Shown one piece after another: positions 2,904 through 16,879 of a stretch of DNA of 16,879 bases (the first letter of the stretch is position 1; every line of letters begins with the position of its first letter). The stretch covers positions 1-16,879 of the forward strand of contig NZ_JXTE01000110.1 of the NCBI RefSeq assembly GCF_000972385.1, in the 5' to 3' direction. Origin of the DNA: Streptomyces sp. WM6386. GTDB taxonomy: Bacteria > Actinomycetota > Actinomycetes > Streptomycetales > Streptomycetaceae. The notes under the pieces were generated by a model, which worked only from the letters and a program-made list of their open reading frames with translations, was not told the DNA's origin and did no database searches. Both the position numbers and the translations under genes were made by a program.

Positions 2904-4424
2904 TCACTGGTGACCAGTCGGAGGAGACCGGTCGTGTGGGCCGGTGGGTGGGCCGGTGGGTGGGCCGGTCAGCCGAGACCGGCCAGTCGGAGCAGGAGTG
3001 CTTTCACATCGGTGGCAGCGACCCGGTCGCCGACTGCACGGGGGGGTGGAGCAGATGAGTAGCGGACCGTCGTCGTCGTTCGCCGGGAGGCGGCCGTGGC
3101 TGCCGCGGACGGGTGAGGGATCCAGAGGCACGACCGCCATGCGGTAGCGCAGGCCGAGTTTCTTGCGGGCCAGTGCGGTGGCCGCCTTGACCTTGACGTA
3201 GGGGTCGCGGGGATCCATGAAGAGTTCGACCGGGTCGTAGCCGGGTTTGCGGTGGATCTCGACGAGTCGCGCGAAGTCGGGCGCGCGGGCGTCGTCGAGC
3301 CAGTAGTAGTACGTGAACCAGGCGTCCGGCTCCGCGACGGCGACGAGCTCTCCGGAGCGCGGGTGGTCGAGGTGGTGGGTCTTCTTTCCCTCGTCGTCCA
3401 GGAGTTGCTCGATGCCGGGCAGTCCGGCGAGGGCGTCCCGGGTCGCCTCCAGGTCTTCGGGGCGACGCACATAGACGTGGGCGATCTGGTGGTCGGCGAC
3501 CGCGAAGGCACGTGAGGCCATCGGGTCCAGGCACTCCATGCCGTCCTGGGTGTGCACCTCCAGCAGTCCTGCGCGGCGCAGGGCGCGGTTGATGTCGACG
3601 GGCCGGCTGACCCTGGTGATGCCGTACTCGGACAGCGCGACGACGGTACGGCCCTCCGCGCGGGCGTCGTCCAGCAGCGGGGCCAGGGCTCGGTCCAGGT
3701 CGGCGGCCGCCTTCAGGGAGCGTGGGTCCTCGGGGCCGAAGCGCTGCAGGTCGTAGTCGAGGTGCGGGAGGTAGCACAGCGTCAGATCGGGGTGGCGGGT
3801 GCTGATGAGGTGGCGGGTCGCGTCGATGATCCAGCGGCTGGAGACGAGGCCGGCACCGGGGCCCCAGAAGTGGAAGAGGGGGAAGGTGCCGAATTTCGCG
3901 GTGAGTTCGTCGTGCAGGGCCACAGGGCGGGTGTAGCAGTCGGGTTCCTTGCGGCCGTCGGAGTAGTAGATCGGACGGCGGGTGACGGTGATGTCGGTGT
4001 CGGCGCCCATGGCGTACCACCAGCAGATGTTGGCGACGGTGTAGCCGGGATGGGCGCGGCGGGCGGCGTCCCACAGCTTGTCCCCGGCGACCAGGCCGTT
4101 GTGCTGACGCCACAGGAGTACGTCGCCGAGGTCGCGGAAGTACCAGCCGTTGCCGACGATGCCGTGCTCGGCCGGGTGGGTGCCGGTCAGGAAGGTGGAC
4201 TGGGCGGCGCAGGTGACGGCCGGCAGGACGGTTTCGAGGGGAGCGTGCGAGCCCGCTCGGGCGAGGGTCTTGAGGTGGGGCATGTGGTCGAGGAGACGGG
4301 GGGTGAGGCCGACGACGTCGAGGACGAGGAGCGGCGTGGGGCGCGGGTCGGTCCGGTGGGTGTCGGTGGCGGCATCGGGGTCCCTGGCGGCTTCGGCGGC
4401 CGTGGCGGCTTTGTGGGTGCTCAT
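2904..4424 (-). CDS. eboF: EboF-type nucleotide pyrophosphatase/phosphodiesterase family protein (C-terminal frameshift)
   Basis: A 506-residue reading frame of the type I phosphodiesterase/alkaline-phosphatase superfamily. LLVLDVVGLTP gives the first metal aspartate (Asp36). PAVTCAAQSTFLTGTHPAEHG carries the presumed nucleophile Thr71, followed by IVGNGWYFRD. The later ligand motifs are unusual: LDYDLQRFGP replaces the common D-x-x-G-H-x-x-G-P, and LSEYGI replaces S-D-H-G. I believe this is a subfamily trait rather than damage. From about residue 460 the frame becomes Pro/Arg/Thr-rich, and the expected family ending is found in another frame (2969-3045). A 1-nt change in the G7 run at 3040-3046 is therefore likely. 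Its start overlaps the eboE stop (ATGA, 4421-4424). EboF is a soluble member of ebo clusters linked to moving metabolites towards the periplasm or membrane; its substrate is not known. Confidence 0.8.
   Translation of the reverse strand: MSTHKAATAAEAARDPDAATDTHRTDPRPTPLLVLDVVGLTPRLLDHMPHLKTLARAGSHAPLETVLPAVTCAAQSTFLTGTHPAEHGIVGNGWYFRDLGDVLLWRQHNGLVAGDKLWDAARRAHPGYTVANICWWYAMGADTDITVTRRPIYYSDGRKEPDCYTRPVALHDELTAKFGTFPLFHFWGPGAGLVSSRWIIDATRHLISTRHPDLTLCYLPHLDYDLQRFGPEDPRSLKAAADLDRALAPLLDDARAEGRTVVALSEYGITRVSRPVDINRALRRAGLLEVHTQDGMECLDPMASRAFAVADHQIAHVYVRRPEDLEATRDALAGLPGIEQLLDDEGKKTHHLDHPRSGELVAVAEPDAWFTYYYWLDDARAPDFARLVEIHRKPGYDPVELFMDPRDPYVKVKAATALARKKLGLRYRMAVVPLDPSPVRGSHGRLPANDDDGPLLICSTPPCSRRPGRCHRCESTPAPTGRSRLTGPPTGPPTGPHDRSPPTGHQ
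2906..2918. repeat. 13-bp palindrome ACTGGTGACCAGT
   Basis: The arms ACTGGT and ACCAGT are exact reverse complements around one central base. It lies between the likely original end of eboF (2969) and the next start (2836). It could be a regulator site, but the length alone gives little statistical support. The 10-mer CCAGTCGGAG that overlaps it (2914-2923) recurs at 2983-2992. Confidence 0.4.
2937..2969. repeat. 12-bp tandem repeat, 2.75 copies (unit TGGGCCGGTGGG)
   Basis: Copies lie at 2937-2948 and 2949-2960, with a 9-nt partial at 2961-2969. In the current eboF frame they encode the low-complexity GPPTGPPTGP. They lie just past the stop of the reconstructed, frame-corrected eboF, so they were probably non-coding spacer before the frameshift. 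Confidence 0.85.
2969..3045 (-). other. Out-of-frame authentic C-terminus of eboF
   Basis: Read one frame over from the long eboF frame, this stretch encodes RAVGDRVAATDVKALLLRLA followed by GLG and TGA at 2969-2971. It looks like a normal C-terminal helix, unlike the low-complexity tail of the annotated frame. Adding one C to the run on the minus strand restores ...LLICSTPPRAVGD... and gives a protein of about 484 residues. Confidence 0.7.
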
Positions 4425-5620
4425 GGGAGTTCCTTCAGGCCGAGGTCCGTCAACAGATCGCGGGCGAGGGTGAGTTCGGCGGCGATGCCGTCGGCGAGCT
4501 GGGCCCGGCCGCGGGGCCGCAGCTCGGGTGGGAGGGCCTGCCAGGTGTAGGTCTCGACCTCCAGGTGGCGGGTGAGCGGGTGCGGGCCGCCGACCAGCCG
4601 GGTCAGCGCGGCTCTGAGGACGGGGAGCGTGGAGGTGAGGGGCGCGGCGGGGGCCGCGTGCAGGGGGACGTGGAAGTGGGCGCGCCAGGGGCTCGCGTCG
4701 GGCAGTGTGTCGCCGCCGAGGGCCTCGCCCAGGTCGTCGGTGCCGCGCAGTCCCGCGGCGATGGGGGCCCCTCCCGCTCGAACGGAGTTGAGAGTGGGGG
4801 ACGTGCGGGTCTGGTGCAGGAAGCGGGGTTCGTCGAAGGCGGCGAGGGCCGTGCGGACCTCCGGCAGATGGGGGTGCTCGGCGTGCAGGGCCGCCGAGAG
4901 CTGGGATTTGACGACGGGGACGCCGGCCGCGGTGAGCGCGTCGAGGGCGGTGTGCGGGTCTTCGAAGGAGGTGGCGAGGTGGCAGGTGTCGACGCAGATG
5001 CCGATCCGGCGGTGGCCGATCGCGGACAGCGGGGCGAGGGCGTCGTGGGTGGTCTCGACGACGCAGCCGGGTTCCGGTTCGAGGCCGATGCGGATGGACC
5101 GTCCGGTCAGCTCCTGCAGGGCGTCGAGGCGTTCGGCGAGCGTGCGCAGGGCCTTCTCGTGGCGTCCGGTGTCGTGGGCGGCGGTGCGCCACGCGAGCGG
5201 CAGGGTCGAGATGCTGCCCTCGGTGACGTCGTCGGGGAGGAGTCCGGCCAGGACCCGGGCCAGGGCGGTGGTGTGCTCCAGGCGTTCGGGGTCGGCCCAG
5301 TCCGGTCGGTAGACGCGGTACTTGACCTCCTCGGCACCGAACCCGTCGTAGGGGAAGCCGTTGAGGGTGACCACTTCCAGGCCGCGCCGGTCGAGTTCGG
5401 CGCGCAGGGCGCGCAGGGCGGAGGGGTCGGAGTCCAGGGCGCGGGCGGCGTCGGCGGCCAGCCACAGGCCGATGCCGAGGCGGTCGCGGCCGAGACGGCG
5501 GCGGACGGGTTCGCAGTGGTCGCGGAGTTGGGCGACTACGCCGTCGAGGGTCTCTGCGGGGTGGACGTTGGTGCAGTAGGCGAGGTGGACGGTGGAGCCG
5601 TCGGGGTGGCGGAAGCGCAT
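4421..5620 (-). CDS. eboE: Metabolite traffic protein EboE (xylose-isomerase-like TIM barrel)
   Basis: A 399-residue protein with the recognisable EboE layout: CTNVHPAET at 16-24, GLWLAADAA at 51-59, NGFPYDGF at 87-94, KYRVYRPDW at 100-108, EPEPGC at 181-186, DTCHLAT at 211-217 and a late HFHVPL. These are the conserved positions of a TIM barrel that resembles sugar phosphate isomerases. The EPEP and DTCH motifs are the likely metal-ligand strands. It starts 3 bp after the eboB stop and its own stop overlaps the eboF start. Residues 274-286 (SPTLNSVRAGGAP) are encoded by a hairpin resembling a dispersed Streptomyces repeat and look inserted just before LRGTDDLGEAL. EboE proteins accompany eboA/B/C/D/F in metabolite-transport clusters, but no reaction is established. 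Confidence 0.88.
   Translation of the reverse strand: MRFRHPDGSTVHLAYCTNVHPAETLDGVVAQLRDHCEPVRRRLGRDRLGIGLWLAADAARALDSDPSALRALRAELDRRGLEVVTLNGFPYDGFGAEEVKYRVYRPDWADPERLEHTTALARVLAGLLPDDVTEGSISTLPLAWRTAAHDTGRHEKALRTLAERLDALQELTGRSIRIGLEPEPGCVVETTHDALAPLSAIGHRRIGICVDTCHLATSFEDPHTALDALTAAGVPVVKSQLSAALHAEHPHLPEVRTALAAFDEPRFLHQTRTSPTLNSVRAGGAPIAAGLRGTDDLGEALGGDTLPDASPWRAHFHVPLHAAPAAPLTSTLPVLRAALTRLVGGPHPLTRHLEVETYTWQALPPELRPRGRAQLADGIAAELTLARDLLTDLGLKELP
4763..4801. repeat. Dispersed Streptomyces-type hairpin element inside eboE
   Basis: On the minus strand the stretch begins CCCCCACTCTCAACTCCG and continues TTCGAGCGGGAGGGG, an imperfect hairpin with C-rich and G-rich ends. It resembles a small palindromic sequence that I recognise as frequent between Streptomyces genes (the family with CCCACTCTCGGCTTCGCTCG). 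Here it is in frame within a coding region and adds about 13 residues. The recognition is from memory, not from a search. Confidence 0.5.
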
Positions 5621-5623
5621 GCC

Positions 5624-6472
5624 CTACTCGCCCCCGCGCAGGATGGAGTTGCCCTCGTGGGTGGGTGCGGTGGCCGTGGCGTCGAGGGTGAGGCGGCCGC
5701 TGAGGCCGTAGAAGGCGACGGGGTTGCGCCACAGCACCAGGTCGACGTCGTCCTCGGTGAAGCCGCTCGCCAGCATGGTGTCGGCGACCCTGCGGGTCTT
5801 GAGGGGATCGCTCCTGCCCCAGTCCGCGGCGGAGTTCACGAGCACCTTCTCCGGGCCGTACTCCTTCAGGATCGCGACCATCCGCTCCTCGTCCATCTTG
5901 GTGTCGGGGTAGACGGAGAAGCCCAGCCAGCAGCCACCGGCCTTGGCCTCCTTGACGGTGGTCTCGTTGAGGTGGTCGACCAGGACGTGGTCCGGGGGCA
6001 GTGCGGACTCCCGGACGACGTCGAGGGTGCGGCGCAGGCCGGCCAGTTTGTCGCGGTGCGGGGTGTGCACGAGTGCGGGCAGTTCGTGGTCGGCGGCGAG
6101 CTGGAGCTGGGCGGCGAGGGCGGTGTCCTCGGCGGGGGTCATGGAGTCGTAGCCGATCTCGCCGACGGCGACGACCTGGTCCTTGACGAGATACCGGGGC
6201 AGTTCGTCGAGGACGGGCACGCAGCGCGGGTCGTTGGCCTCCTTGGGGTTGAGGGCGAGGGTGCAGTGGTGGGCGATGCCGTACTGGGCGGCGCGGAAGG
6301 GCTCCCAGCCGAGGAGGGAGTCGAAGTAGTCGAGGAAGGAGGAGGGGGAGGTGCGGGGCTGGCCGAGCCAGAAGGAGGGTTCGACTACGGCGCGGACGCC
6401 GGCCGCGTGCATGGCCTCGTAGTCGTCGGTGGTGCGGGACGTCATGTGGATGTGGGGGTCGAACAGGCGCAT
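5624..6472 (-). CDS. eboB: EboB-type TatD-like metal-dependent hydrolase
   Basis: A 282-residue amidohydrolase-superfamily protein. The metal site is readable in order: HIH at 7-9 (FDPHIHM), Glu105 in VGEIGYD, His136 in VHTPH, His167 in VDHLNE and Asp217 in SAADWG. This is the TatD pattern, though the family here handles an unknown substrate rather than proven DNA. Its ATG overlaps the eboA stop by one base (TGATG at 6470-6474), with AAGGAG 8 nt upstream. eboE follows after 3 bp. A TatD-like enzyme between eboA and eboE is a constant part of ebo clusters, and this is the basis for the symbol. It is cytoplasmic (no signal or membrane segment). Confidence 0.85.
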   Translation of the reverse strand: MRLFDPHIHMTSRTTDDYEAMHAAGVRAVVEPSFWLGQPRTSPSSFLDYFDSLLGWEPFRAAQYGIAHHCTLALNPKEANDPRCVPVLDELPRYLVKDQVVAVGEIGYDSMTPAEDTALAAQLQLAADHELPALVHTPHRDKLAGLRRTLDVVRESALPPDHVLVDHLNETTVKEAKAGGCWLGFSVYPDTKMDEERMVAILKEYGPEKVLVNSAADWGRSDPLKTRRVADTMLASGFTEDDVDLVLWRNPVAFYGLSGRLTLDATATAPTHEGNSILRGGE

Positions 6473-7158
6473 CAGGACTGCTCCTTGGACTCGGTCGGCG
6501 TCGCCTGGGTCAGGGCCAGCGCGCGTTGGAGGTCTTCGGGCACTTCACGCCCCGCCGCGGTGCGTTCGGCGGCGTAGTCGCCGAGCATGCGGGCGAGTTC
6601 CTGGTCGGCGTGGGCCCGGCGGTCCAGGCCGGCCACCGCGTCGACGGGTACGCCGGTGAACAGGCACTTCAGGACGGCGTGCCGCCACTGGTGGGGGTCC
6701 AGGTGGCGGGCCGCGTAGGGGCCGACGGCGGCGGTGAGGAGGCGGGTGTCGTTGGTGCGCAGGGCGTCCTCGACGAGCGGGAGCGCGTCGGGGCCCGGCA
6801 CGAGGTGGGGCAGGGCGTGCAGGACGGCGCGGCGTTCGGCGGCGGTGCCCTGCCGGTAGACGCGGGTGAGGGCGGCGGTGTCGGCGTGGGCCGCGTGCAG
6901 GATGAGGACGCGGGCGGCGTCGGCGTGCTCGGGCCCGCAGCGGCGGCCGGCCTCGGCCAGGCGCAGTTCCCACACGGAGATGGGGCCGTGGACGCCGGGG
7001 TGGGCGGCGGCCTCGTCGAGGGCCTGGTCCAGCCAGGCGCGGGCGGCTCCGGCGAGGCGGGTGTCGAGGTGGGCGTGCAGGGTGGCCGGCGGGGTGTGGG
7101 CGAGGGCGTCGGGGTCCACCGTGGGGGTGTCCGGGGTGGAGTGGGCGGCGCGGGTCAT
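6472..7158 (-). CDS. eboA: EboA domain protein
   Basis: A 228-residue soluble helical protein with no catalytic motif. The diagnostic region is AVLKCLFTGVPVDAVAGLDR (161-180) followed by RAHADQELARMLGDYAAER, typical of EboA. The N-terminal half has alanine-rich helices and ISVWELRLAEAGRR near 60-73. The first 30 residues are a Pro/Thr/Ala-rich leader. The start at 7158 overlaps the stop of the upstream isomerase (ATGA), with AGGGAG at a normal distance. EboA has no known activity; it marks ebo clusters, which in cyanobacteria act in delivering scytonemin precursor to the periplasm. Confidence 0.85.
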   Translation of the reverse strand: MTRAAHSTPDTPTVDPDALAHTPPATLHAHLDTRLAGAARAWLDQALDEAAAHPGVHGPISVWELRLAEAGRRCGPEHADAARVLILHAAHADTAALTRVYRQGTAAERRAVLHALPHLVPGPDALPLVEDALRTNDTRLLTAAVGPYAARHLDPHQWRHAVLKCLFTGVPVDAVAGLDRRAHADQELARMLGDYAAERTAAGREVPEDLQRALALTQATPTESKEQS

Positions 7159-8093
7159 GTGGTGCTCCCTTCAGGGGTGGCGGAGGGATCGCCGGGAGGT
7201 GCGTGGGTGGCCGCCGCTCGGCGGAGGAAGGGGAGGGACTGTTCGGCGAAGTGGGGGCCCGCGTGGGAGTGGCGGGGCAGTTCGACGACGGTGAGTCCCT
7301 GGTAGCCGGTGTCGGCCAGGGCGGCGAGGACGGGAGGGAAGTCGATCTCTCCGTCGCCGAGTGGAAGGTGTTCGTGGACGCCGCGGCGCATGTCCTCGAT
7401 CTGGACGTGCCGCAGCCAGGGGGCGGCGGCGCGGACGCAGGCCGCGGGCGGGAGCGGTTCGAGGCACTGGCAGTGGCCGATGTCGAGGGTGAGGCCGAGG
7501 GGTTCGGGGTCGCCGAGTTCCCGGCGCAGGCGGTGGAAGTCGGTGAGGGTGGCGAGGAGGTGGCCGGGTTCGGGCTCGACGGCGAGGGGCACGCCCGCGG
7601 TGGCGGCGGCGTCGAGGACCGGGGTGAGGGCTTCGGCGAGGCGTTTCCAGGCCGTGTCCTGGTCGGTGCCCGTCGGGGTGATCCCGCTGAAGCAGTGCAG
7701 GGCGTGTGCGCCGAGGTCGGCGGCGACCCGGACGGCACGGATCAGGAGGTCGACGCGGCGGGCCCGGTCCTCGGGGTCCGGGTCGAGGAGGCAGGGGCCG
7801 TGTTTACGGCGCGGGTCCAGGACATAGCGGGCGCCGGTCTCCACGGTGACGCTCAGGCCGAGCGCGTCCAGCCGCCGGGCCACGCGACCGGTGCGGGCGG
7901 CGAGGTCCGGGGCGAGCGGGTCGAGATGCATGTGGTCGAGGGTCAGGCCTGCGCCGTCGTAGCCGAGGTCGGCGAGCAGGCCGAGGGCGTCGTCGAGCCG
8001 GAGGTCGGTGAGGCCGTTGGTTCCGTAGCCGAAGCGGAGGGGCGTGCCGTTGCGGGATCGGCCCTGGACAGGGGCGGCGGTTTCGGGGCTCAT
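7155..8093 (-). CDS. Sugar phosphate isomerase/epimerase (TIM barrel) of the ebo cluster
   Basis: A 312-residue cytoplasmic xylose-isomerase-like TIM barrel. GYGTNGLTDLRLDDAL forms strand 1. Likely metal ligands are Glu173 in AVEPEPGH, Asp204 and His207 in LTLDIGHC, and Glu271 in VVELPRHSH; HVQIEDM (229-235) is the strand-7 motif. The ATG at 8093 has GAGGAGGGGG about 7 nt upstream and overlaps a TGA in the upstream frame as ATGA, while its own stop overlaps the eboA start. The frame stays open as far as 8951, but the upstream part is unrelated and belongs to the pseudogene region. Location immediately after an eboC tail suggests it is a standing accessory member of this cluster. Substrate unknown. 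Confidence 0.87.
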   Translation of the reverse strand: MSPETAAPVQGRSRNGTPLRFGYGTNGLTDLRLDDALGLLADLGYDGAGLTLDHMHLDPLAPDLAARTGRVARRLDALGLSVTVETGARYVLDPRRKHGPCLLDPDPEDRARRVDLLIRAVRVAADLGAHALHCFSGITPTGTDQDTAWKRLAEALTPVLDAAATAGVPLAVEPEPGHLLATLTDFHRLRRELGDPEPLGLTLDIGHCQCLEPLPPAACVRAAAPWLRHVQIEDMRRGVHEHLPLGDGEIDFPPVLAALADTGYQGLTVVELPRHSHAGPHFAEQSLPFLRRAAATHAPPGDPSATPEGSTT

Positions 8094-8263
8094 GGGTTGC
8101 ACCCCCTCCTCGCGGACTTCCTGCCGAGCGGCGCGAGTGCGGCGATGAGGAGGGCGCTGACGCGGGCGCCGGAGCGGACGGTGAGGGTCGGGCCGGTCTC
8201 GTACGGGCCGAGCAAGGAGCCGATGGCGAGCACGCCCTTGTGGAGTTTCGAGGGGTTGGCCGC
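8090..8263 (-). pseudogene. C-terminal remnant of EboC/UbiA-type prenyltransferase
   Basis: The last 57 residues of an open frame read from AANPSKLHKGVLAIGS through SGARVSALLIAALAPLGRK and SARRGCNP to TGA. This matches the end of actinobacterial EboC-type UbiA proteins as I know them: an NPSP-x(n) start, a first helix with GI(L/R)xLIPLQAAL, a second hydrophobic helix, and a closing PxxRRxARK. The usual IPLQAAL segment is degenerate here (LLGPYETGPTL). The TGA overlaps the next ATG, as expected for an intact coupled operon. The rest of the protein (about 230 residues, including both Asp-rich motifs) is absent. The EboC assignment is an inference from pattern and context. Confidence 0.55.
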
Positions 8264-8391
8264 GCGAGATTCGGGGCCTGCGCCTCGGGACGTCTCTGGT
8301 GTGTCGGCGGCCGTCGGCGAGTCCGCGTTGCGGGACGAGTTCGGCCGCGTCGCACCGGCTGTCCGTGACGGCTCCACTCCCGGCCCCTTCC

Positions 8392-8643
8392 TCATCGGGC
8401 CTCCCCGTCACCACCGGCACGGTCGGAGCGTCCCGATCCCGCACCGTCGTGGCCGCCGAGGACGAGCGACACCAGGGCCGGCAGGCCGCTGTCGGCGAGA
8501 GCCGGGGCCCCGGTGACCAGGCCGGTCGGCGATTGCGGGCCCGCGGTGACGGCGACGCAGCCGGTGACGACGGTCGTCGCGACGGAACCGCGCGCCCCGA
8601 CCGGTCGGGCACCGACGCGTGGTGAGGAAACGGACGCGGACAT
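8392..8643 (-). pseudogene. N-terminal remnant of inositol-3-phosphate synthase
   Basis: An 83-residue frame starting at an ATG with AAGGAGG 7 nt upstream. Residues 16-29 (GARGSVATTVVTGC) are the NAD-binding start of this enzyme family. PTGLVTGAPALADSGLPAL and VSLVLGGHD (to residue 66) continue the match over the first strand-helix-strand unit. After residue 66 similarity fades and the frame stops at 8392; the full enzyme is about 350-390 residues. The next frame over holds DAAELVPQRGLADGRR (about 8304-8351), which may be a frameshifted continuation. The enzyme normally converts glucose-6-phosphate to inositol-3-phosphate. Here only the nucleotide-binding start survives, so it cannot be functional. 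Confidence 0.7.
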
Positions 8644-8714
8644 GGGCAGCCTCCTTGTCGAACGCGTCGTGGCTGAACCCCTGGAGGGAACGCCCGTCGG
8701 GGCAGTGGAAGAGA

Positions 8715-8752: not shown

Positions 8753-10090
8753 TCAGCCGCCCTTGACGGGCAGTTCCTTGATCCGGACGTTCCGGAAGGA
8801 CACCTGGTCGTCGGCTCCGTGGTTCTGGATGCCGAAGTGACCGTCGGTGAGGCTCCGGGCCGGATCGGTGTTGGTGAAATCGTTGATCTTCACGCCGTTG
8901 AGCCAGACGCGGAGCCGTTCGCCCTCCACCCGGATCTCGTACGTGTTCCACTCCCCCGCCGGGTTCAGCGCGCGGTCGCGCTTCAACAGGTCGGCGGAGC
9001 GGAAGCCGTAGACGGACCCGGTCGTCTTCTCGGGCACGTCCGTGGCGTCGATCTGGATCTCATAACCGTTGTTCACGGCCGACCACGGGTCGTCCGAGGG
9101 CGGGAAGCCGACGAACACACCGGAGTTGTCGTCGCCGGCCGTCTTCCAGTCGAGCTTGAGCGAGTACGCGCCGAAGTCCGAGGCGGCGTACCAGAGCATC
9201 CCCATGCCGCCGGTCGACGTGATGGTGCCGTCGTCGTCCAGGGTGAAGGAGCCCGGGCCGGCCTGCCGCCAGCCGTCCAGCGACTGCGCGGTGCCGTCGA
9301 ACAGCGGACTGTATCCGTTCTCCGGTCGGCAGTCGGCCTGCGCCTCGCCGACCGCATACAGGATGCCGCCGACCAGATGCTGCCGGAAGACGGGGTCCGC
9401 GTACGACTCCTTCGTGTGGCCGACGCCCGTGTAGAAGGCACGGCCGCCCTGGTAGTTCTGGCACCAGGCGATCGGATGGTCCCCGCTCATCGTGCCGCCG
9501 CTGTACGACGACTCGTCGAGCGAGGCGAGGACATGGGCCCGTTCCCGGGGATTGGAACGGTAGTTGTACCACTCGTCGGTCCGGTTCCAGGTCGGCCCCA
9601 GTGCCGAGGTGGCCGGGTGGGCGCGGTCCTCGACGACGACCGTCGCGGGCTGGATCGCCGGGTGCGACTGGAAGTAGGCGCCGGCGAGGCCGCCGTAGAA
9701 CGCCCAGTCGTACTCGGTGTCGGCGGCGGCGTGGATGCCGACGTAGCCGCCGCCCTTGCGGATGTAGCCCTCGAAGGCCCTCTGCTGGGCGGCGTCCAGG
9801 ACGTCGCCGGTCGTCGACAGGAAGACGACCGCGTCGTAGCGCCGCAGGTTGCCCGGCGTGAAGGCGGCGGCGTCCTCCGTGGCGTCGACCCTGAAGCCGC
9901 TCGCCCCGCCGAGTTCCTTCAGGGCGGCGACGCCGTCGGGGATGGAGTCGTGCCGGAAGCCGGCCGTCTTGGAGAAGACCAGCACGCGTTCCCCGTCACG
10001 CCCGCCCTGTGAGGCGGCGGGGTCGCAGACGCAGCCCAGGAGCACAGCGGCTCCCACAACTGCCGTGCTCAGTCGGCTCGTTGAGCGCAT
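8753..10090 (-). CDS. ThuA-DUF1080 (3-keto-disaccharide hydrolase-like) lipoprotein
   Basis: A 445-residue two-domain protein. Residues 1-20 form a signal with lipobox LLGC (Cys20), so it is probably a membrane-anchored lipoprotein outside the cell. Residues about 35-248 are a ThuA-like domain: LVFSKTAGFRHDSIP (37-51), IHAAADTEYDW (119-129), WYNY (174-177), PIAWCQNYQGGRAFYTGVGH (206-225). Residues about 262-438 are a DUF1080/3-keto-disaccharide hydrolase domain with a laminin-G-like fold: LFDGTAQSLDGW (263-274), GYEIQIDAT (342-350), GEWNTYEIRVEG (379-390), GHFGIQNHG (417-425). ThuA relatives act on 3-keto sugars such as 3-ketotrehalose, and DUF1080 members cleave 3-keto-glycosides, so a role in breaking down an oxidised glycoside is likely. 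AGGAGGT lies 6 nt before the ATG. Confidence 0.9.
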   Translation of the reverse strand: MRSTSRLSTAVVGAAVLLGCVCDPAASQGGRDGERVLVFSKTAGFRHDSIPDGVAALKELGGASGFRVDATEDAAAFTPGNLRRYDAVVFLSTTGDVLDAAQQRAFEGYIRKGGGYVGIHAAADTEYDWAFYGGLAGAYFQSHPAIQPATVVVEDRAHPATSALGPTWNRTDEWYNYRSNPRERAHVLASLDESSYSGGTMSGDHPIAWCQNYQGGRAFYTGVGHTKESYADPVFRQHLVGGILYAVGEAQADCRPENGYSPLFDGTAQSLDGWRQAGPGSFTLDDDGTITSTGGMGMLWYAASDFGAYSLKLDWKTAGDDNSGVFVGFPPSDDPWSAVNNGYEIQIDATDVPEKTTGSVYGFRSADLLKRDRALNPAGEWNTYEIRVEGERLRVWLNGVKINDFTNTDPARSLTDGHFGIQNHGADDQVSFRNVRIKELPVKGG

Positions 10091-11368: not shown

Positions 11369-12571
11369 TCAGACGGCTATGAGCGTGTAGACGGAGTTCT
11401 TCTCGGCGCTCTCCTCGACCGCGGCGAGAACGCGCTGGACCTGGAGCCCGTCGGTGAAGGAGGGTTCGGGGCGGCGGCCCTCGGCGACGGCGTGGACGAG
11501 GTCGCGGGCCTGGTGGACGAAGCTGTGCTCGTAGCCGAGGCCGTGGCCCGGCGGCCACCAGGCGTCCAGGTAGGGGTGGTCGGGTTCGGTGACGAGGATG
11601 CGGCGGAAGCCGGCGTGCGCGGCGGGCTCGGTGGCGTCGTGGTACGAGAGTTCGTTGAGGCGCTCCAGGTCGAAGGCCAACGAGCCGCGCTCGCCGTTGA
11701 GTTCGATACGCAGGGCGTTCTTGCGGCCGGTGGCGTACCGGGTCGCCTCGAAGGAGGCGAGGGCGCCGGAGATGAAGCGGCCGGTGAACAGGGCGGCGTC
11801 GTCGACGGTGACCTGGCCGGTGCCGGCGGACGTCACCGCGGACAGCCCGCTGGTGGCGCCGACGGGCAGGGGCCGTTCCCGGACGAAGGTCTCCGTGAGG
11901 GCGGAGACCCCCGCGAGCCGCTCCCCCGCCAGGTACTGGGCGAGGTCGATGATGTGCGCCCCGAGATCGCCGAGCGAGCCCGAGCCGGCGTGTTCCTTGC
12001 GCAGCCGCCAGGTGAGGGGGAACTCCGGGTCTACCAGCCAGTCCTGAAGGTACGTCACCCGCACGTGCCGTAGCCGCCCGAGGCGTCCCTCGGCGACCAT
12101 GTTCCGGGCGTGCGCGGTGGCGGGCACCCGGCGGTAGTTGAAGCCGACCATCGCCAACCGGCCACGCTCGTACGCCTCTTCGGCCGCCTGTGCCATCACC
12201 GCGGCTTCCTCGACCGTGTTGGCGAGCGGCTTCTCGCACAGCACGTGCTTGCCCGCGGCGAGTGCGGCGACGGCGATCTCGGCGTGGCTGTCGCCGGGGG
12301 TGCAGATGTCGACGAGGTCGACGTCGTCCCGGGCGATCAGCGCACGCCAGTCGGTCTCGGCCGCCGCCCAGCCGTGCCGGTCGGCCGCCGCCCGCACGGC
12401 TGCCGGGTCGCGGCCGCAGATCGCGGACAGCACCGGCTGCCTGGGCAGGTCGAAGACGCGGCCCACGGTGCGCCAGCCCTGGGAGTGGGCGGCGCCCATG
12501 AAGGCGTAGCCGACCATGCCCACCCTGAGGGGCGGCTTCTCGGCCCCTTCTGACTGCTGCGGCTGTGCCAT
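11369..12571 (-). CDS. Gfo/Idh/MocA-family NAD(P)-dependent oxidoreductase
   Basis: A 400-residue cytoplasmic dehydrogenase. The Rossmann start is [15 protein letters not shown] (16-30). The family motif EKPLA is at 113-117, and the catalytic Asp/His pair lies in [17 protein letters not shown] (Asp202, His206). The C-terminal half is the typical open beta-sheet substrate domain. Members oxidise sugars or inositols at one hydroxyl, often to a 3-keto form. The ATG at 12571 is preferred over a TTG 6 nt upstream because GAGGAGG lies 9 nt before the ATG but only 3 nt before the TTG. It follows the sugar-binding protein gene after an 82-bp gap holding a hairpin and is coupled to the downstream isomerase. 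Confidence 0.92.
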
Positions 12572-12615
12572 GCGCAATGTCCTCCTCGTCGTCGTGGCGC
12601 GGTGGGGGGTGCCTT

Positions 12616-12647
12616 CCGCCCGACGGGCCGCTCGGCCTGTCGGGCGG
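12616..12647 (-). terminator. GC-rich stem-loop between the binding-protein and oxidoreductase genes
   Basis: Bases 12616-12630 pair with 12633-12647 over 15 positions with one non-Watson-Crick pair; the innermost pairs must open to form a loop. It lies 6 nt past the binding-protein stop (12654) on the minus strand. There is no U-tract, so partial readthrough or protection of the upstream message is more likely than full termination. Confidence 0.5.
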
Positions 12648-12653
12648 GACGCC

Positions 12654-13703
12654 TCACTTGAAGCCGGTGGACATGTACTGGTCGATGTTGGTCTTGTCGA
12701 CGACGGCCGAGTAGAGCGTGAGCGAGGCCGGGATCTCGAACTCGGCGAGGCCTCCGATGCCCTTGCCCTGGCCGAGGGCGCGGGCGAGGTCGATCGCGGA
12801 CGCGGCCATGGTCGGCGGGTAGAGGACGGTCGCCTTGAGGACGCCGTCGTCCTTCTTGATGGCCTGGAACGCGGAGAGGGCGCCGGCGCCGCCGACCATC
12901 AGGAAGTCGTCCCGCCCGGCCTGCTCGATGGCCCGCAGCGCGCCGACCCCCTGGTCGTCGTCGTGGTTCCACAGGGCGTCGAACTTCGACTGGGCCTGCA
13001 GGAGTTGGGCCATCTTGGCCTGCCCGGACTCCACGGTGAACTCGGCGGCCTGACGGGCCACCTTCTTGATGTTGGGGTAGTTCTTCAGGGCGTCGTCGAA
13101 GCCCTTGGTGCGCTGCTGGGTCAGCTCCAGGTTGTCCAGGCCGGCCAGTTCGATGACCCGGGCGGCCGACTTCCCCTTGAGCTTCTCGCCGATGTAGTGA
13201 CCGGCGTTGAGGCCCATGCCGTAGTTGTCGCCGCCGATCCAGCAGCGGTAGGCCTGCGGGGTGTTGAAGATCCGGTCGAGGTTGACGACCGGGATGCCCG
13301 CGCGCATCGCCTGCAGTCCGACCTGGGTGAGGGCCTTGCCGTCGGCGGGCAGCACCACCAGGACGTCGACCTTCTTGTTGATCAGCGTCTCGATCTGGCC
13401 GATCTGTGCGGCCGTGTCGTTGGAGCCCTCGGTGATCTCCAGGGTGACGTCCGAGTACTTCTTGGCGCGGCTCTTGGCGTTGTCGTTGATGGCGTTGAGC
13501 CAGCCGTGGTCGGCCTGCGGTCCGGCGAAGCCGATGGTGACCTGCTTGCCGGGCTTGTCGTCGGCGGCCGGCTGGTCGTTCGCGGCCGGTTCGTCGTCCG
13601 ACTCGTTGCTCGTGCACCCCACGAGGAGGGCACCCGCTCCCATGGCGGCGGTCCCGAAGAGCAGCCCTCTGCGGCTGGTGAATCGACTGTCCGGATGCTG
13701 CAT
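12654..13703 (-). CDS. Sugar ABC transporter substrate-binding lipoprotein
   Basis: A 349-residue periplasmic-binding-protein type 1 (ribose-binding-like) protein. The N-terminus combines a twin-arginine motif (TSRRGLLFG, Arg11-Arg12) with a lipobox LVGC (Cys30), so it is predicted to be a Tat-exported lipoprotein on the outer face of the membrane. An acidic linker (ESDDEPAANDQPAADDKPG) precedes the binding domain from about residue 54 (VTIGFAGPQADHGW). DVLVVLPADGKAL, GIPVVNLDRIF and FDALWNHDDDQGVGALRA are the usual hinge and ligand strands. The gene follows the permease by 17 bp. It delivers an unidentified sugar or polyol to the transporter. Confidence 0.93.
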   Translation of the reverse strand: MQHPDSRFTSRRGLLFGTAAMGAGALLVGCTSNESDDEPAANDQPAADDKPGKQVTIGFAGPQADHGWLNAINDNAKSRAKKYSDVTLEITEGSNDTAAQIGQIETLINKKVDVLVVLPADGKALTQVGLQAMRAGIPVVNLDRIFNTPQAYRCWIGGDNYGMGLNAGHYIGEKLKGKSAARVIELAGLDNLELTQQRTKGFDDALKNYPNIKKVARQAAEFTVESGQAKMAQLLQAQSKFDALWNHDDDQGVGALRAIEQAGRDDFLMVGGAGALSAFQAIKKDDGVLKATVLYPPTMAASAIDLARALGQGKGIGGLAEFEIPASLTLYSAVVDKTNIDQYMSTGFK

Positions 13704-13720
13704 GGCGGTGAACCCTTTCC

Positions 13721-14740
13721 TCAGGTCGTGCTTGCGGTACGGCGCTGGACCAGCACGGCGGCGACGATGATCGCGCCCTTGGCGATCTGCTGGACGTCGC
13801 TCTGCAGGTTGTTCAGGGCGAAGATGTTGGTGATCGTGGTGAAGATCAGGACACCGAGGACGGAGCCGGTGATGGTGCCGCGGCCGCCGCTGAGCAGCGT
13901 GCCGCCGATGATCGCGGCGGCGATCGCGTCGAGCTCGTAGAGGTTGCCGTTGGTGTTCTGGCCCGAGCCCGAGAGGATGATCAGCAGGAAGGCGGCGATG
14001 CCGCAGCACAGCCCGGACAGCAGGTAGAGGTAGAGGCGTTGGCGGCGGACGTCGATGCCGGCGAGGCGGGCGGCCTCCGCGTTGCCGCCGACCGCGACGG
14101 TGCGGCGGCCGAAGGTGGTGCGGTTGAGGACCAGCCAGCCGATGATCGTGACGACGGCGAAGACCATGACGAGCGGCGGGATGCCGAGGACGTACGCGTC
14201 GCGCAGCCCGAGGTCCAGGACGCTGTCGACGGTGACGATCTGCGTCTTGCCGTCGGTGATCTGCAGGGCGAGGCCGCGCGCCGAGGCGAGCATGGCGAGT
14301 GTCGCGATGAAGGGGACCATCCCGCCGTACGCGATGAGCAGTCCGTTGACCAGGCCGCAGCCGAGGCCCACGAGGACCGCGGTGAGGAGGATGCCGCCGA
14401 AGCCGTACTCCTGGGTGGCGACCGTGGTCGCCCACACGGAGGCCAGCGCGACGATCGCGCCGACGGACAGGTCGATGCCGCCCGACATGATCACGAAGGT
14501 CATGCCGACCGTGACGACGCCGATCACCGAGCCCTGGGTGAGGACGAGTTGGAGGTTGCGGGTGTCGAGGAACTCGTCCGGCTTGGTGATCCCGCCGACC
14601 ACGATCAGTGCGGCGAGGACCCCGAGCAGGGAGAGGGTGCGGAGGTCGACTCGGGCCAGCACCCCGCGCCAGACGGGGGGTCGGGCCACGGGGGCGGTCT
14701 TTCCGGTGCCGTCCCGGGGCGGGGAGACATGCTGCGTCAT
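13721..14740 (-). CDS. Sugar ABC transporter permease (RbsC-like)
   Basis: A 339-residue integral membrane protein of the branched-chain/ribose permease family (BPD_transp_2), with about nine or ten hydrophobic segments after a 30-residue polar N-terminus. The family signature GMTFVIMSGGIDLSVGA is at 79-95. The cytoplasmic coupling loop reads FGRRTVAVGGNAEAARLAGI. The late AIIGGTLLSGGRGTITG stretch is also typical. Its ATG overlaps the ATPase stop (ATGA at 14737-14740). With one permease and one two-domain ATPase, the transporter would assemble as a permease homodimer. Confidence 0.93.
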   Translation of the reverse strand: MTQHVSPPRDGTGKTAPVARPPVWRGVLARVDLRTLSLLGVLAALIVVGGITKPDEFLDTRNLQLVLTQGSVIGVVTVGMTFVIMSGGIDLSVGAIVALASVWATTVATQEYGFGGILLTAVLVGLGCGLVNGLLIAYGGMVPFIATLAMLASARGLALQITDGKTQIVTVDSVLDLGLRDAYVLGIPPLVMVFAVVTIIGWLVLNRTTFGRRTVAVGGNAEAARLAGIDVRRQRLYLYLLSGLCCGIAAFLLIILSGSGQNTNGNLYELDAIAAAIIGGTLLSGGRGTITGSVLGVLIFTTITNIFALNNLQSDVQQIAKGAIIVAAVLVQRRTASTT

Positions 14741-16254
14741 GACGCCGGGCTTCCTTCCATGACGAGGTCCAGTACGCGGGATTCGTCGAGCTCGCGGGCG
14801 GGGGCCGTGTGCACGACACGGCCCTCGCGCAGTACGAGGACGCGGTCGGCGAGGCCGAGCACTTCGGGCACCTCGCTGGAGACGAGCAGAACGGCGAGGC
14901 CTTCGTCGGCCAGTCGACGGACGACTGCATACAGTTCACTGCGGGCACCGACATCGACGCCGCGAGTCGGCTCGTCGAGGAGCAGCACCCGGCAGCCGCG
15001 CAGGAGCCAGCGGGCCAGGACGGCCTTCTGCTGGTTGCCGCCGGACAGGGTGCGGACCGGGGCGGACGGGTTGTCGGGCCGCAGGGACAGCTCGCGGGTG
15101 GCCGCCCGCGCCGCGCCGAGTTCGGCGCCGCGGTCGATCCAGCCGCCGCGTGAGAAGCGGGACATGGTGGAGACCGAGACATTGCGGGTGACGGACTCCA
15201 GCATCAACAGGGCCTGCGCCTTGCGCTCCTCGGGGGCGAGGCCGAGTCCGGCGCGGACGGCGGCGCGTACGCTGCCGGGCTTGAGCGGTCGACCGTCGAC
15301 CAGGACCTGCCCGGAGGTCGGCTTCCGTGCACCGTATACAGTCTCCAGTATTTCGGATCGGCCGGATCCGACGAGACCGGCCAGTCCGACGATCTCGCCG
15401 GGGTGCAGGGTCAGGTCGAAGGGCTCGAACTCGCCCTCCCGGCCGAGGCCTCGGACCTCCAGGACCGGTGTGCCCGTGGGAGGCGACGCGGGCCGGTCGG
15501 GAAAGACGTACTCCACGTTCCGTCCCGTCATCAGCGCCACGACCTCACGGGTCGGGGTCGACTTGGCGGGCAGCCCGCCCGCGACGGCCCGTCCGTCCTT
15601 CAGCACGGTGACCCGGTCGCCGATCCGCCGGATCTCCTCCAGCCGGTGGGAGATGTAGACGACGGCGACGCCGTCCGCGGTGAGGTCGCCGACGATCCGG
15701 AAGAGGTTGTCGACCTCGTCCGGGTCGAGGGCGGCGGACGGTTCGTCCATCACGATGAGCCGTACGTCGTGGGAGAGCGCCCGCGCCATGGAGACGATCT
15801 GCTGCTGGGCCGCCGACAACTCGCCCACCAGGCGGGCCGGGTCGATCTCGGGGTGCCCGAGTCGCTTGAGCAGCAGGCCGGTCGACGCGCGGGCCGCCTT
15901 GCCCCGTACGACGAATCCGGCCGCCGTCGGTTCGTGACCGAGGTGGACGTTCTCGGCGACCGACAGGTGTTCCACCAGGTCGAGTTCCTGGTAGATGGTG
16001 GCGATGCCGAGGCGCATGGCGGCGATCGGCGAGCGCAGGGTGACCGGTTCGCCGCGCCAGGTGATGGTGCCGTCGTCGGGCTGGTGGGCGCCGGCCAGGA
16101 CCTTGATGAGGGTGGACTTGCCGGCCCCGTTCTGGCCGAGCAGACAGTGCACTTCACCGGCCTGGACGTCGAGGTCGACGCCGTCGAGGGCCCGGACTCC
16201 GGGGAACGACTTGGTGATGCCGGACATGCTGAGGAGCGGTGGTTCTGGTGCCAT
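14737..16254 (-). CDS. Sugar ABC transporter ATP-binding protein with two ATPase domains (RbsA-like)
   Basis: A 505-residue protein of two fused ABC domains. Domain 1 has Walker A GQNGAGKST (40-48), signature ELSAAQQQ (145-152), Walker B IVMDEPSA (167-174) and the switch His203. Domain 2 has a degenerate Walker A GLVGSGRSE (293-301), signature LSGGNQQK (403-410) and LLLDEPTRGVD (424-434). An intact first and degenerate second P-loop is normal for RbsA/MglA-type importers. The ATG at 16254 has a weak AGGGGA upstream. It lies 136 bp after the ROK gene in the same direction; that gap shows no clear promoter or palindrome, so co-transcription or a promoter that I cannot see are both possible. Confidence 0.93.
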   Translation of the reverse strand: MAPEPPLLSMSGITKSFPGVRALDGVDLDVQAGEVHCLLGQNGAGKSTLIKVLAGAHQPDDGTITWRGEPVTLRSPIAAMRLGIATIYQELDLVEHLSVAENVHLGHEPTAAGFVVRGKAARASTGLLLKRLGHPEIDPARLVGELSAAQQQIVSMARALSHDVRLIVMDEPSAALDPDEVDNLFRIVGDLTADGVAVVYISHRLEEIRRIGDRVTVLKDGRAVAGGLPAKSTPTREVVALMTGRNVEYVFPDRPASPPTGTPVLEVRGLGREGEFEPFDLTLHPGEIVGLAGLVGSGRSEILETVYGARKPTSGQVLVDGRPLKPGSVRAAVRAGLGLAPEERKAQALLMLESVTRNVSVSTMSRFSRGGWIDRGAELGAARAATRELSLRPDNPSAPVRTLSGGNQQKAVLARWLLRGCRVLLLDEPTRGVDVGARSELYAVVRRLADEGLAVLLVSSEVPEVLGLADRVLVLREGRVVHTAPARELDESRVLDLVMEGSPAS

Positions 16255-16390
16255 GTGTGGTTCCCCTCGGCTGGCGTGCGGGCCGTTTCAGGGCAGGGCG
16301 AGGCAGCGAGTGGTGCGGGTGAGCTGTGCCGGACCGGTGGCTTGCGCGGACTTGCGGGGGCCTCTTCGGCTCACGCAGGCCTGTTCGGGC

Positions 16391-16879
16391 TTACGCGGGT
16401 GAGAACAGGTGGTCGCTGATCAGTCGGGCCGCGCCGATGACTCCGGCGGTGGGGCCCAACTCCCCCAGAACGATGGGCAGGTTGCCGGTCGCGAGAGGCA
16501 GCGACTGGCGGTAGACCTGGGTGCGGATCGCGGCGAGCAGGGTGTGGCCGAGGCCGGTCACCCCGCCGCCGATCACCACCAGGCCGGGGTTGAAGAAGCT
16601 GACCAGGCCGGCGATGACCTGGCCGGTTCGGTTGCCGCCCTCACGGATGAGGTCGAGGGCGGTGGCGTCGCCTGCCGCGGCCGCGGCCGCGACGTCTATG
16701 GCGGTCAGGGTGCCGTTGGTCTCCAGCCGGGTGGCGAGTTCGGCGGAGTGTCCCTGCTGGGCCGCGTCGACGGCGTCCCGGGCCAACGCGGCCCCGCTGA
16801 AGTGGGCTTCCAGGCAGCCCCGGTTGCCGCAGGCGCAGGGACGGCCGTCGGGCACGGCCTGGATGTGCCCGATGTCGCC
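16391..16879 (-). CDS. ROK-family protein, C-terminal part (partial)
   Basis: The frame is open to the window edge, giving the last 162 residues; the start lies outside. It opens with GDIGHIQAVPDGRPCACGNR, followed by GCLE, i.e. the ROK zinc-binding motif C-x-C-G-x-x-G-C-x-E. It continues through AAGDATALDLIREGGNRTGQ and LVSFFNPGLVVIGGGVTGLG to a TAA at 16391-16393. ROK proteins are either sugar kinases or NagC/XylR-type repressors with an N-terminal winged helix, and the missing N-terminus decides which. Its place at the head of a sugar ABC operon, with the same orientation, favours a repressor that responds to the imported sugar. Confidence 0.85.
   Translation of the reverse strand, partial: GDIGHIQAVPDGRPCACGNRGCLEAHFSGAALARDAVDAAQQGHSAELATRLETNGTLTAIDVAAAAAAGDATALDLIREGGNRTGQVIAGLVSFFNPGLVVIGGGVTGLGHTLLAAIRTQVYRQSLPLATGNLPIVLGELGPTAGVIGAARLISDHLFSPA

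Follow-up and report, generated by a model that had tools for sequence, protein, structure and literature searches.

The two genes at the head of an ebo cluster in a Streptomyces genome, I3PS1 (for an ebo-linked inositol-3-phosphate synthase, I3PS) and eboC1, form a real double pseudogene and not one scar. Most probably, both were lost from this cluster (cluster A) by separate internal deletions, their functions are covered by spare copies elsewhere in the genome, and the pattern is one of reciprocal loss among co-resident clusters. The I3PS and EboC functions look relocated, not lost, and the case suggests that one bacterial pathway can become scattered over several loci.

The window, meaning the whole stretch of DNA analysed, covers one contig, C14, from end to end (16,879 bases); the draft genome has 856 contigs and a size of 9.2 Mb. 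Its minus strand carries, in order, a ThuA protein gene, ORF 8392-8643, ORF 8090-8395, an isomerase gene and the genes for EboA, EboB (TatD-like), EboE and EboF (Table 1). The adjacent EboA, EboB, EboE and EboF genes (NF035938, PF01026, NF035939, PF01663) place the locus among ebo clusters, and the gene for the ThuA and 3-keto-disaccharide hydrolase protein is a shared upstream neighbour in many relatives. The UbiA-family EboC of this cluster is represented only by remnants at 8104-8232, and, of the two domains that mark an inositol-3-phosphate synthase (PF07994 and PF01658), only a sub-threshold PF07994 was found in the window remnant. The sugar phosphate cyclase family to which EboD belongs (PF01761) gave one strong match (C246) and one weak match (C1, E 4e-4) in the genome, both away from the window's contig.

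Table 1. Features of the decayed ebo cluster A in the window
Feature	Coordinates	Strand	Evidence
ThuA + 3-keto-disaccharide hydrolase protein, upstream of remnants	8753..10090	-	PF06283, PF06439
AAGGAGG ribosome site of I3PS1 remnant	8650..8656	-	sequence
I3PS1 remnant, first 66 codons, ebo-linked I3PS	8446..8643	-	DNA match, dN/dS
I3PS1 remnant ORF, last 17 codons, origin not demonstrable	8392..8445	-	156/500 shuffles reach best score
ATGA stop/start overlap, I3PS1 remnant / eboC1 remnant	8392..8395	-	sequence
eboC1 remnant ORF, 5' part; N-terminal linker by position only	8246..8395	-	62/200 shuffles, chance level
eboC1 fragment, second-helix segment (LAIGS..LYEAGMAL in relatives)	8183..8232	-	42/50 bases, 0/200 shuffles
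eboC1 C-terminal fragment	8104..8190	-	0/200 shuffles
ATGA overlap, eboC1 remnant / isomerase	8090..8093	-	sequence
Xylose-isomerase-like TIM barrel protein (ISO1), intact	7155..8093	-	PF01261 E 1.2e-44
EboA, intact	6472..7158	-	NF035938 E 6.4e-50
EboB (TatD-like hydrolase), intact	5624..6472	-	PF01026 E 4.1e-13
EboE, intact	4421..5620	-	NF035939 E 2.4e-123, above its cut-off
EboF-like phosphodiesterase, start codon provisional	2904..4331	-	PF01663 E 5e-70; position in intact ebo clusters

The first remnant frame (83 aa) starts 6 bases past the ribosome site and its end overlaps the second (101 aa) via ATGA; the second overlaps the isomerase ORF in the same manner. Pfam searches returned a sub-threshold NAD_binding_5 match for the first ORF (E 0.11, 12.3 bits) and no match for ORF 8090-8395, and it was comparison with intact relatives that identified both fragments. 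Over positions 8446-8643, 162 of 198 bases are identical to those of an intact I3PS gene; the score is 216, and the best of 200 shuffles reached 34. The end of eboC (8104-8190) scored 109, where the best of 200 shuffles reached 37, and the score of the inner eboC piece was reached by none of 200 shuffles. At the protein level, the first 70 residues of ORF 8090-8395 were not significant (69/500 shuffles) and residues 47-70 taken alone were reached by 2/500. Likeness to relatives was at chance level both for 8392-8445 (156/500 shuffles), so that the tail of the I3PS1 remnant is not demonstrable as the true gene end, and for 8246-8395 (62/200 shuffles); the first helix of EboC was not found in the eboC1 remnant. 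UbiA prenyltransferases are marked by two Asp-rich motifs, NDxxD and YDxxxK, and both are absent from the eboC1 remnant and present in the spare, EboC2. A sequence-only reading of this DNA had proposed a strong ribosome site followed by a synthase N-terminus, an EboC tail still coupled by ATGA to the next gene, the loss of most of both genes, and an ancestral order of synthase, eboC, isomerase, eboA, eboB, eboE and eboF; comparison with relatives bears out the gene identities, the loss of most of both genes, the retained overlap and the order.

The same reading held that a single deletion had fused the synthase start to the EboC tail, with the join probably near 8260-8280. We consider such an event very improbable because the I3PS/eboC overlap at 8392-8395, a -1 overlap that is the usual form in intact relatives, survives, and the matching inner eboC fragment at 8183-8232 also sits between the two ends; the join at 8260-8280 is not borne out. 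A synthase-to-eboC join of that kind does occur in another genome (L146/G253). The overlap and the inner fragment indicate instead that each gene lost its own interior. Judging from these pieces, I3PS must have undergone one deletion or more, and eboC one or two. In I3PS1 everything past codon 66 up to the unplaced tail is gone; in eboC1 the loss runs from the second helix to the C-terminal region, and the fragments meet across a GCCCTCA-like repeat that is found at both parent sites when the flanks are compared. In the close relatives L008 (S. canus V4I20) and L009 these two genes have decayed at the corresponding position, but the breakpoints differ. L009 retains an in-frame C-terminal piece of I3PS; in L008 and L009 alike, the isomerase frame begins with a GTG that overlaps the end of the I3PS remnant. 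An assembly join at the remnants is unlikely since both of these relatives show the decay, and the L008 locus lies on a contig of 10.5 Mb. Even with a draft of 856 contigs and a window that spans an entire 16.9 kb contig, the idea that intact genes were collapsed or misjoined thus has next to no likelihood, and the sole EboC match of the window genome at E 1e-12 is EboC2, on contig C24. As side observations, in S. antibioticus DSM 40234 (L011 4350-4900) a short I3PS start continues in one open frame into an otherwise full-length EboC, and in S. cyaneochromogenes (L012 5375-5890) a shortened EboC has a long N-terminal stretch that is repeat-like and rich in glycine, tryptophan and serine.

Between the window and L008, dN/dS of the 66-codon I3PS stub is 0.97 (0.83 over all 83 codons), whereas the isomerase (0.30), EboA (0.37), EboB (0.07), EboE (0.11) and EboF (0.16) give low values. 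The stub gives 0.51 against both L009 (35 codons) and the intact L010, so that constraint was not absent over its whole history. By these values the stub seems to be under little constraint and to have lost it recently, while its neighbours are constrained.

We also considered whether the remnant frames and their ATGA overlaps form a translational relay that carries ribosomes to the isomerase and is preserved by selection. Of the 15 decayed loci, 14 still have a chain of stops and nearby starts that leads from the beginning of I3PS to the isomerase (13 when tight overlaps only are allowed). However, random deletions of at least 200 bases placed in 99 intact loci keep such a chain in 74-86% of cases (66-83% for tight overlaps only). 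As random deletions keep it in most cases, chain retention is no evidence of selection; selection on an overlapping-frame relay was not distinguishable from chance under this null, and we regard the relay as unlikely.

The window genome holds an intact copy of each lost gene. I3PS2 (C57:124332-125432) contains both PF07994 and PF01658, is 77% identical to one intact ebo I3PS and is the only ebo-type I3PS of the genome; a distant homologue (26%, C112) is presumably the housekeeping enzyme. EboC2 (C24:35053-35949) is the only EboC (E 1e-12) and belongs to a complete cluster, ebo2, made up of EboC2, ISO2, EboA2, TatD2, EboE2 and EboF. At the genome level, then, the sequence-only proposal that the membrane and inositol-related steps were lost fails. 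Low dN/dS values were obtained for I3PS2 (0.13-0.25, 5 genomes) and EboC2 (0.21-0.28, 3 genomes). I3PS2 and EboC2 would serve cluster A; EboC2 is only about 50-60% identical to most of the intact EboC1 proteins, and the two need not have the same specificity. No I3PS was mapped beside ebo2 in the window genome (L119 1-7960), and since another genome with ebo2 (G014) has only a 26% I3PS match (E 5.9e-5), ebo2 may not need an I3PS. A further type of ebo cluster, present in six genomes (L262, L263, L264, L265, L266, L267), has its own I3PS, 54-60% identical to I3PS2, beside EboC.

I3PS2 itself lies in a decayed locus, B, on C57, where the order is ROK, ABC transporter and oxidoreductase genes, I3PS2, an EboF tail (74-residue match) and genes for a TIM protein and a PQQ-type protein. 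In two other genomes (G223 and G049) the B cluster is complete, with I3PS2 followed by EboC, ISO, EboA, TatD, EboE and EboF. Cluster A has thus lost I3PS and EboC, and cluster B all but I3PS. Clusters A and B were seen together in 12 genomes: every one has a full-length I3PS2, B is otherwise decayed in 10, and 5 have lost I3PS1. In a comparison of the two loci, window positions 11369-16879 and C57 (G000:C57, L118) have ROK, ABC ATPase, permease and oxidoreductase neighbours in common at 75-88% protein identity, so that much of the sugar-uptake neighbourhood is present twice.

The association between loss and spare copies was examined in two sets of genomes. The 80 named loci nearest the window isomerase are all from Streptomyces, and 50 of them (nine known to be decayed and 41 picked by hand) made up the first set, from which 48 genomes were searched along with the window genome. 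Two loci already noted as odd, L055 and L056, were outside these 50 and were searched later among 29 supplementary genomes. L055 was added to the counts as a counter-example; the other 28, several of them cut by contig ends, were not counted, including L056 (same genome region as L165), which is rearranged with two ebo blocks run together. In L056 6043-12768 (Streptomyces sp. uw30), a truncated type A isomerase, EboA, EboB and EboE are followed directly by ebo2-type EboA, EboB and EboE, as if two clusters had been fused. The second set was drawn after the idea had formed, from 199 Streptomyces genomes, 127 of which had the isomerase at E 1e-100; 120 of the listed isomerase matches were taken and 10 duplicates of the first set removed. 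Spares were searched for in 80 of 100 candidate genomes; the 20 omitted were the lowest-scoring, and 19 of these scored intact and one (L219/G118) was only partly covered. Two flagged genomes, G105 and G244, were deliberately retained, and L224/G244 was dropped as a decayed locus on account of 1,847 N in the region. The automatic test for intact I3PS and EboC was passed by 154 of 201 loci, many of the others being cut by contig ends, and long open EboC frames with partial alignment cover (e.g. L036, L050, L205, L207) were counted as intact. Spares were coded by hand at cut-offs of E 1e-12 (first set) and E 1e-35 (second set), with a 126-residue frame in G073 counted as absent. Sampling was conditioned on the isomerase, whose own loss lies outside what the counts can show.

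Over the 129 genomes, a spare EboC accompanies 13 of the 15 loci without EboC and 21 of the 114 with it (Fisher 2.9e-7). The first set gave 9/9 lost versus 11/40 intact (Fisher 8.2e-5; 9/10 and 5e-4 with L055 included), and the second 4/5 versus 10/74 (Fisher 0.003). A spare I3PS was found for all 5 loci without I3PS as compared with 10 of the 124 with it (Fisher 1.1e-5): 4/4 versus 5/45 in the first set (Fisher 6e-4), and 1/1 versus 5/78 in the second (Fisher 0.076, from one loss only). Both I3PS copies are retained in 10 genomes, so I3PS2 may have a job of its own.

Independence of the losses was assessed on a FastTree tree of the isomerase and ThuA proteins (129 rows, 929 columns), which is a locus tree; ebo clusters may move between species. 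EboC loss requires 9 events. Lineages with a spare account for 16.5% of the length of the tree but for 7 of these events (P 9e-5). The 3 events required for I3PS all map to lineages that carry another I3PS and account for 6.3% of the length (P 2.5e-4). A stricter independent-pairs test on supported branches lacked power for EboC (8 pairs, about 2 informative, median P 0.5), the spare following the loss in 2.1 pairs on average and the opposite direction in 0.0, and gave a median P of 1 for I3PS (3 pairs). The weak pairs result may reflect intact sister species that often also carry the spare, as expected if spares came first.

Plain decay would account for the window differently: the cluster would be on its way out, I3PS and EboC would simply have gone first, and the spares would be coincidental. 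In its favour are the 2 exceptions among the 15 loci (L239/G105 and L055/G263), in which EboC is lost, no other EboC is found and the cluster is broken beyond EboC. In the former, EboC is truncated with no second EboC at E 1e-35, the isomerase match stops at residue 254 of 312 and that of EboE at 316 of 399, EboF pieces lie in both orientations, and EboA was not found. In the latter (S. phaeoluteigriseus), the first half of EboC is gone, there is no other EboC at E 1e-12, and no EboA, EboB, EboE or EboF was found within 6 kb downstream. Both look like dead clusters. EboF, too, is short or absent in L069, L075 and G155. By contrast, the downstream genes of the window are open with dN/dS of 0.07-0.37 against L008, loss is associated with spares in two sample sets, and EboA, EboB and EboE are rarely short: among the 80 named loci, 1/77, 1/76 and 2/75 assessable cases, respectively, fell below the set length. 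We therefore hold plain decay to be quite unlikely. EboF fell below the set length in 6 of 74 (L055, L056, L069, L075, L080, L082), some of which may be contig ends. Four of the five decayed loci of the second set (G253, G143, G155, G172), followed downstream, keep EboA, EboB and EboE in 4/4 and EboF in 3/4; the fifth is the broken G105. As side observations, cluster A of G155 (L276 6658-9161) is also without EboF, and EboF is lost in part in L069 and L075.

The clearest case of a pathway shared between two loci is G253. Its locus A has isomerase, EboA, EboB, EboE and EboF genes without stops, and I3PS and EboC only as scraps; its locus B keeps I3PS2 and EboC, and isomerase, EboA, EboB, EboE and EboF are absent. 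Genome-wide, G253 has one I3PS (E 1e-60) and one EboC (E 1e-35).

Reciprocal loss could arise as follows. The products of I3PS and EboC, a cyclitol phosphate and a prenylated lipid, would be diffusible; one intact I3PS or EboC anywhere in the cell would thus suffice to feed the remaining cluster, and co-resident clusters could therefore lose these genes reciprocally, with the isomerase, EboA, EboB and EboE staying in cluster A. Where genes have been duplicated, reciprocal loss takes different members from the redundant copies until one working set is spread over loci; the clusters here, in contrast, have diverged and are no recent duplicates, and exchange is seen for some steps only. A more speculative extension, which we find possible though on balance doubtful, divides the pathway into two halves. 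The supply half (I3PS, EboC and perhaps EboF) would make a shared prenylated cyclitol, inositol phosphate replacing the product of EboD, and the site-specific half (isomerase, EboA, EboB and EboE) would use it; a common pool would then permit reciprocal loss of supply genes and a pathway laid out over two or three loci.

I3PS-type and EboD-type enzymes both form a carbocycle from a sugar phosphate, and in the Streptomyces loci I3PS sits where an EboD-like step would be expected; I3PS may replace EboD there. Published reports describe the ebo operon (eboA-F) from Bacteroidetes, Cyanobacteria and eustigmatophyte plastids (PMC5133447, PMC6282210), and propose that EboD, a putative sugar phosphate cyclase, and EboC, of the UbiA superfamily, together lead to an isoprenoid-cyclitol compound (PMC5133447). 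A related prenyltransferase, Ubi-297, adjoins ebo genes in Flavobacteria and Saccharomonospora (PMC9235831). The window cluster resembles the published operon in its EboA, TatD-like EboB, UbiA-family EboC, TIM-barrel EboE and phosphodiesterase EboF (PMC5133447, PMC6282210); it differs in that no eboD was identified at the window locus and in that intact Streptomyces relatives carry an I3PS gene and an extra isomerase in the cluster. None of PMC5133447, PMC6282210 and PMC9235831 uses the word "inositol" in its main text, and among the matches listed from the open literature we recognised no report that places I3PS within ebo clusters or describes such a pattern of loss. A cyclitol-forming enzyme at the head of the cluster agrees with the isoprenoid-cyclitol proposal (PMC5133447). 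For this widespread cluster, the natural losses suggest which ebo genes are exchangeable (I3PS, EboC) and which are fixed. They also caution that what looks like a broken cluster when viewed by itself may be complete at the genome level. In Nostoc punctiforme, too, the ebo genes of a single genome are divided between two sites, with one eboD on its own and another next to the remaining five genes (PMC5133447); the Streptomyces clusters differ in showing complementary decay.
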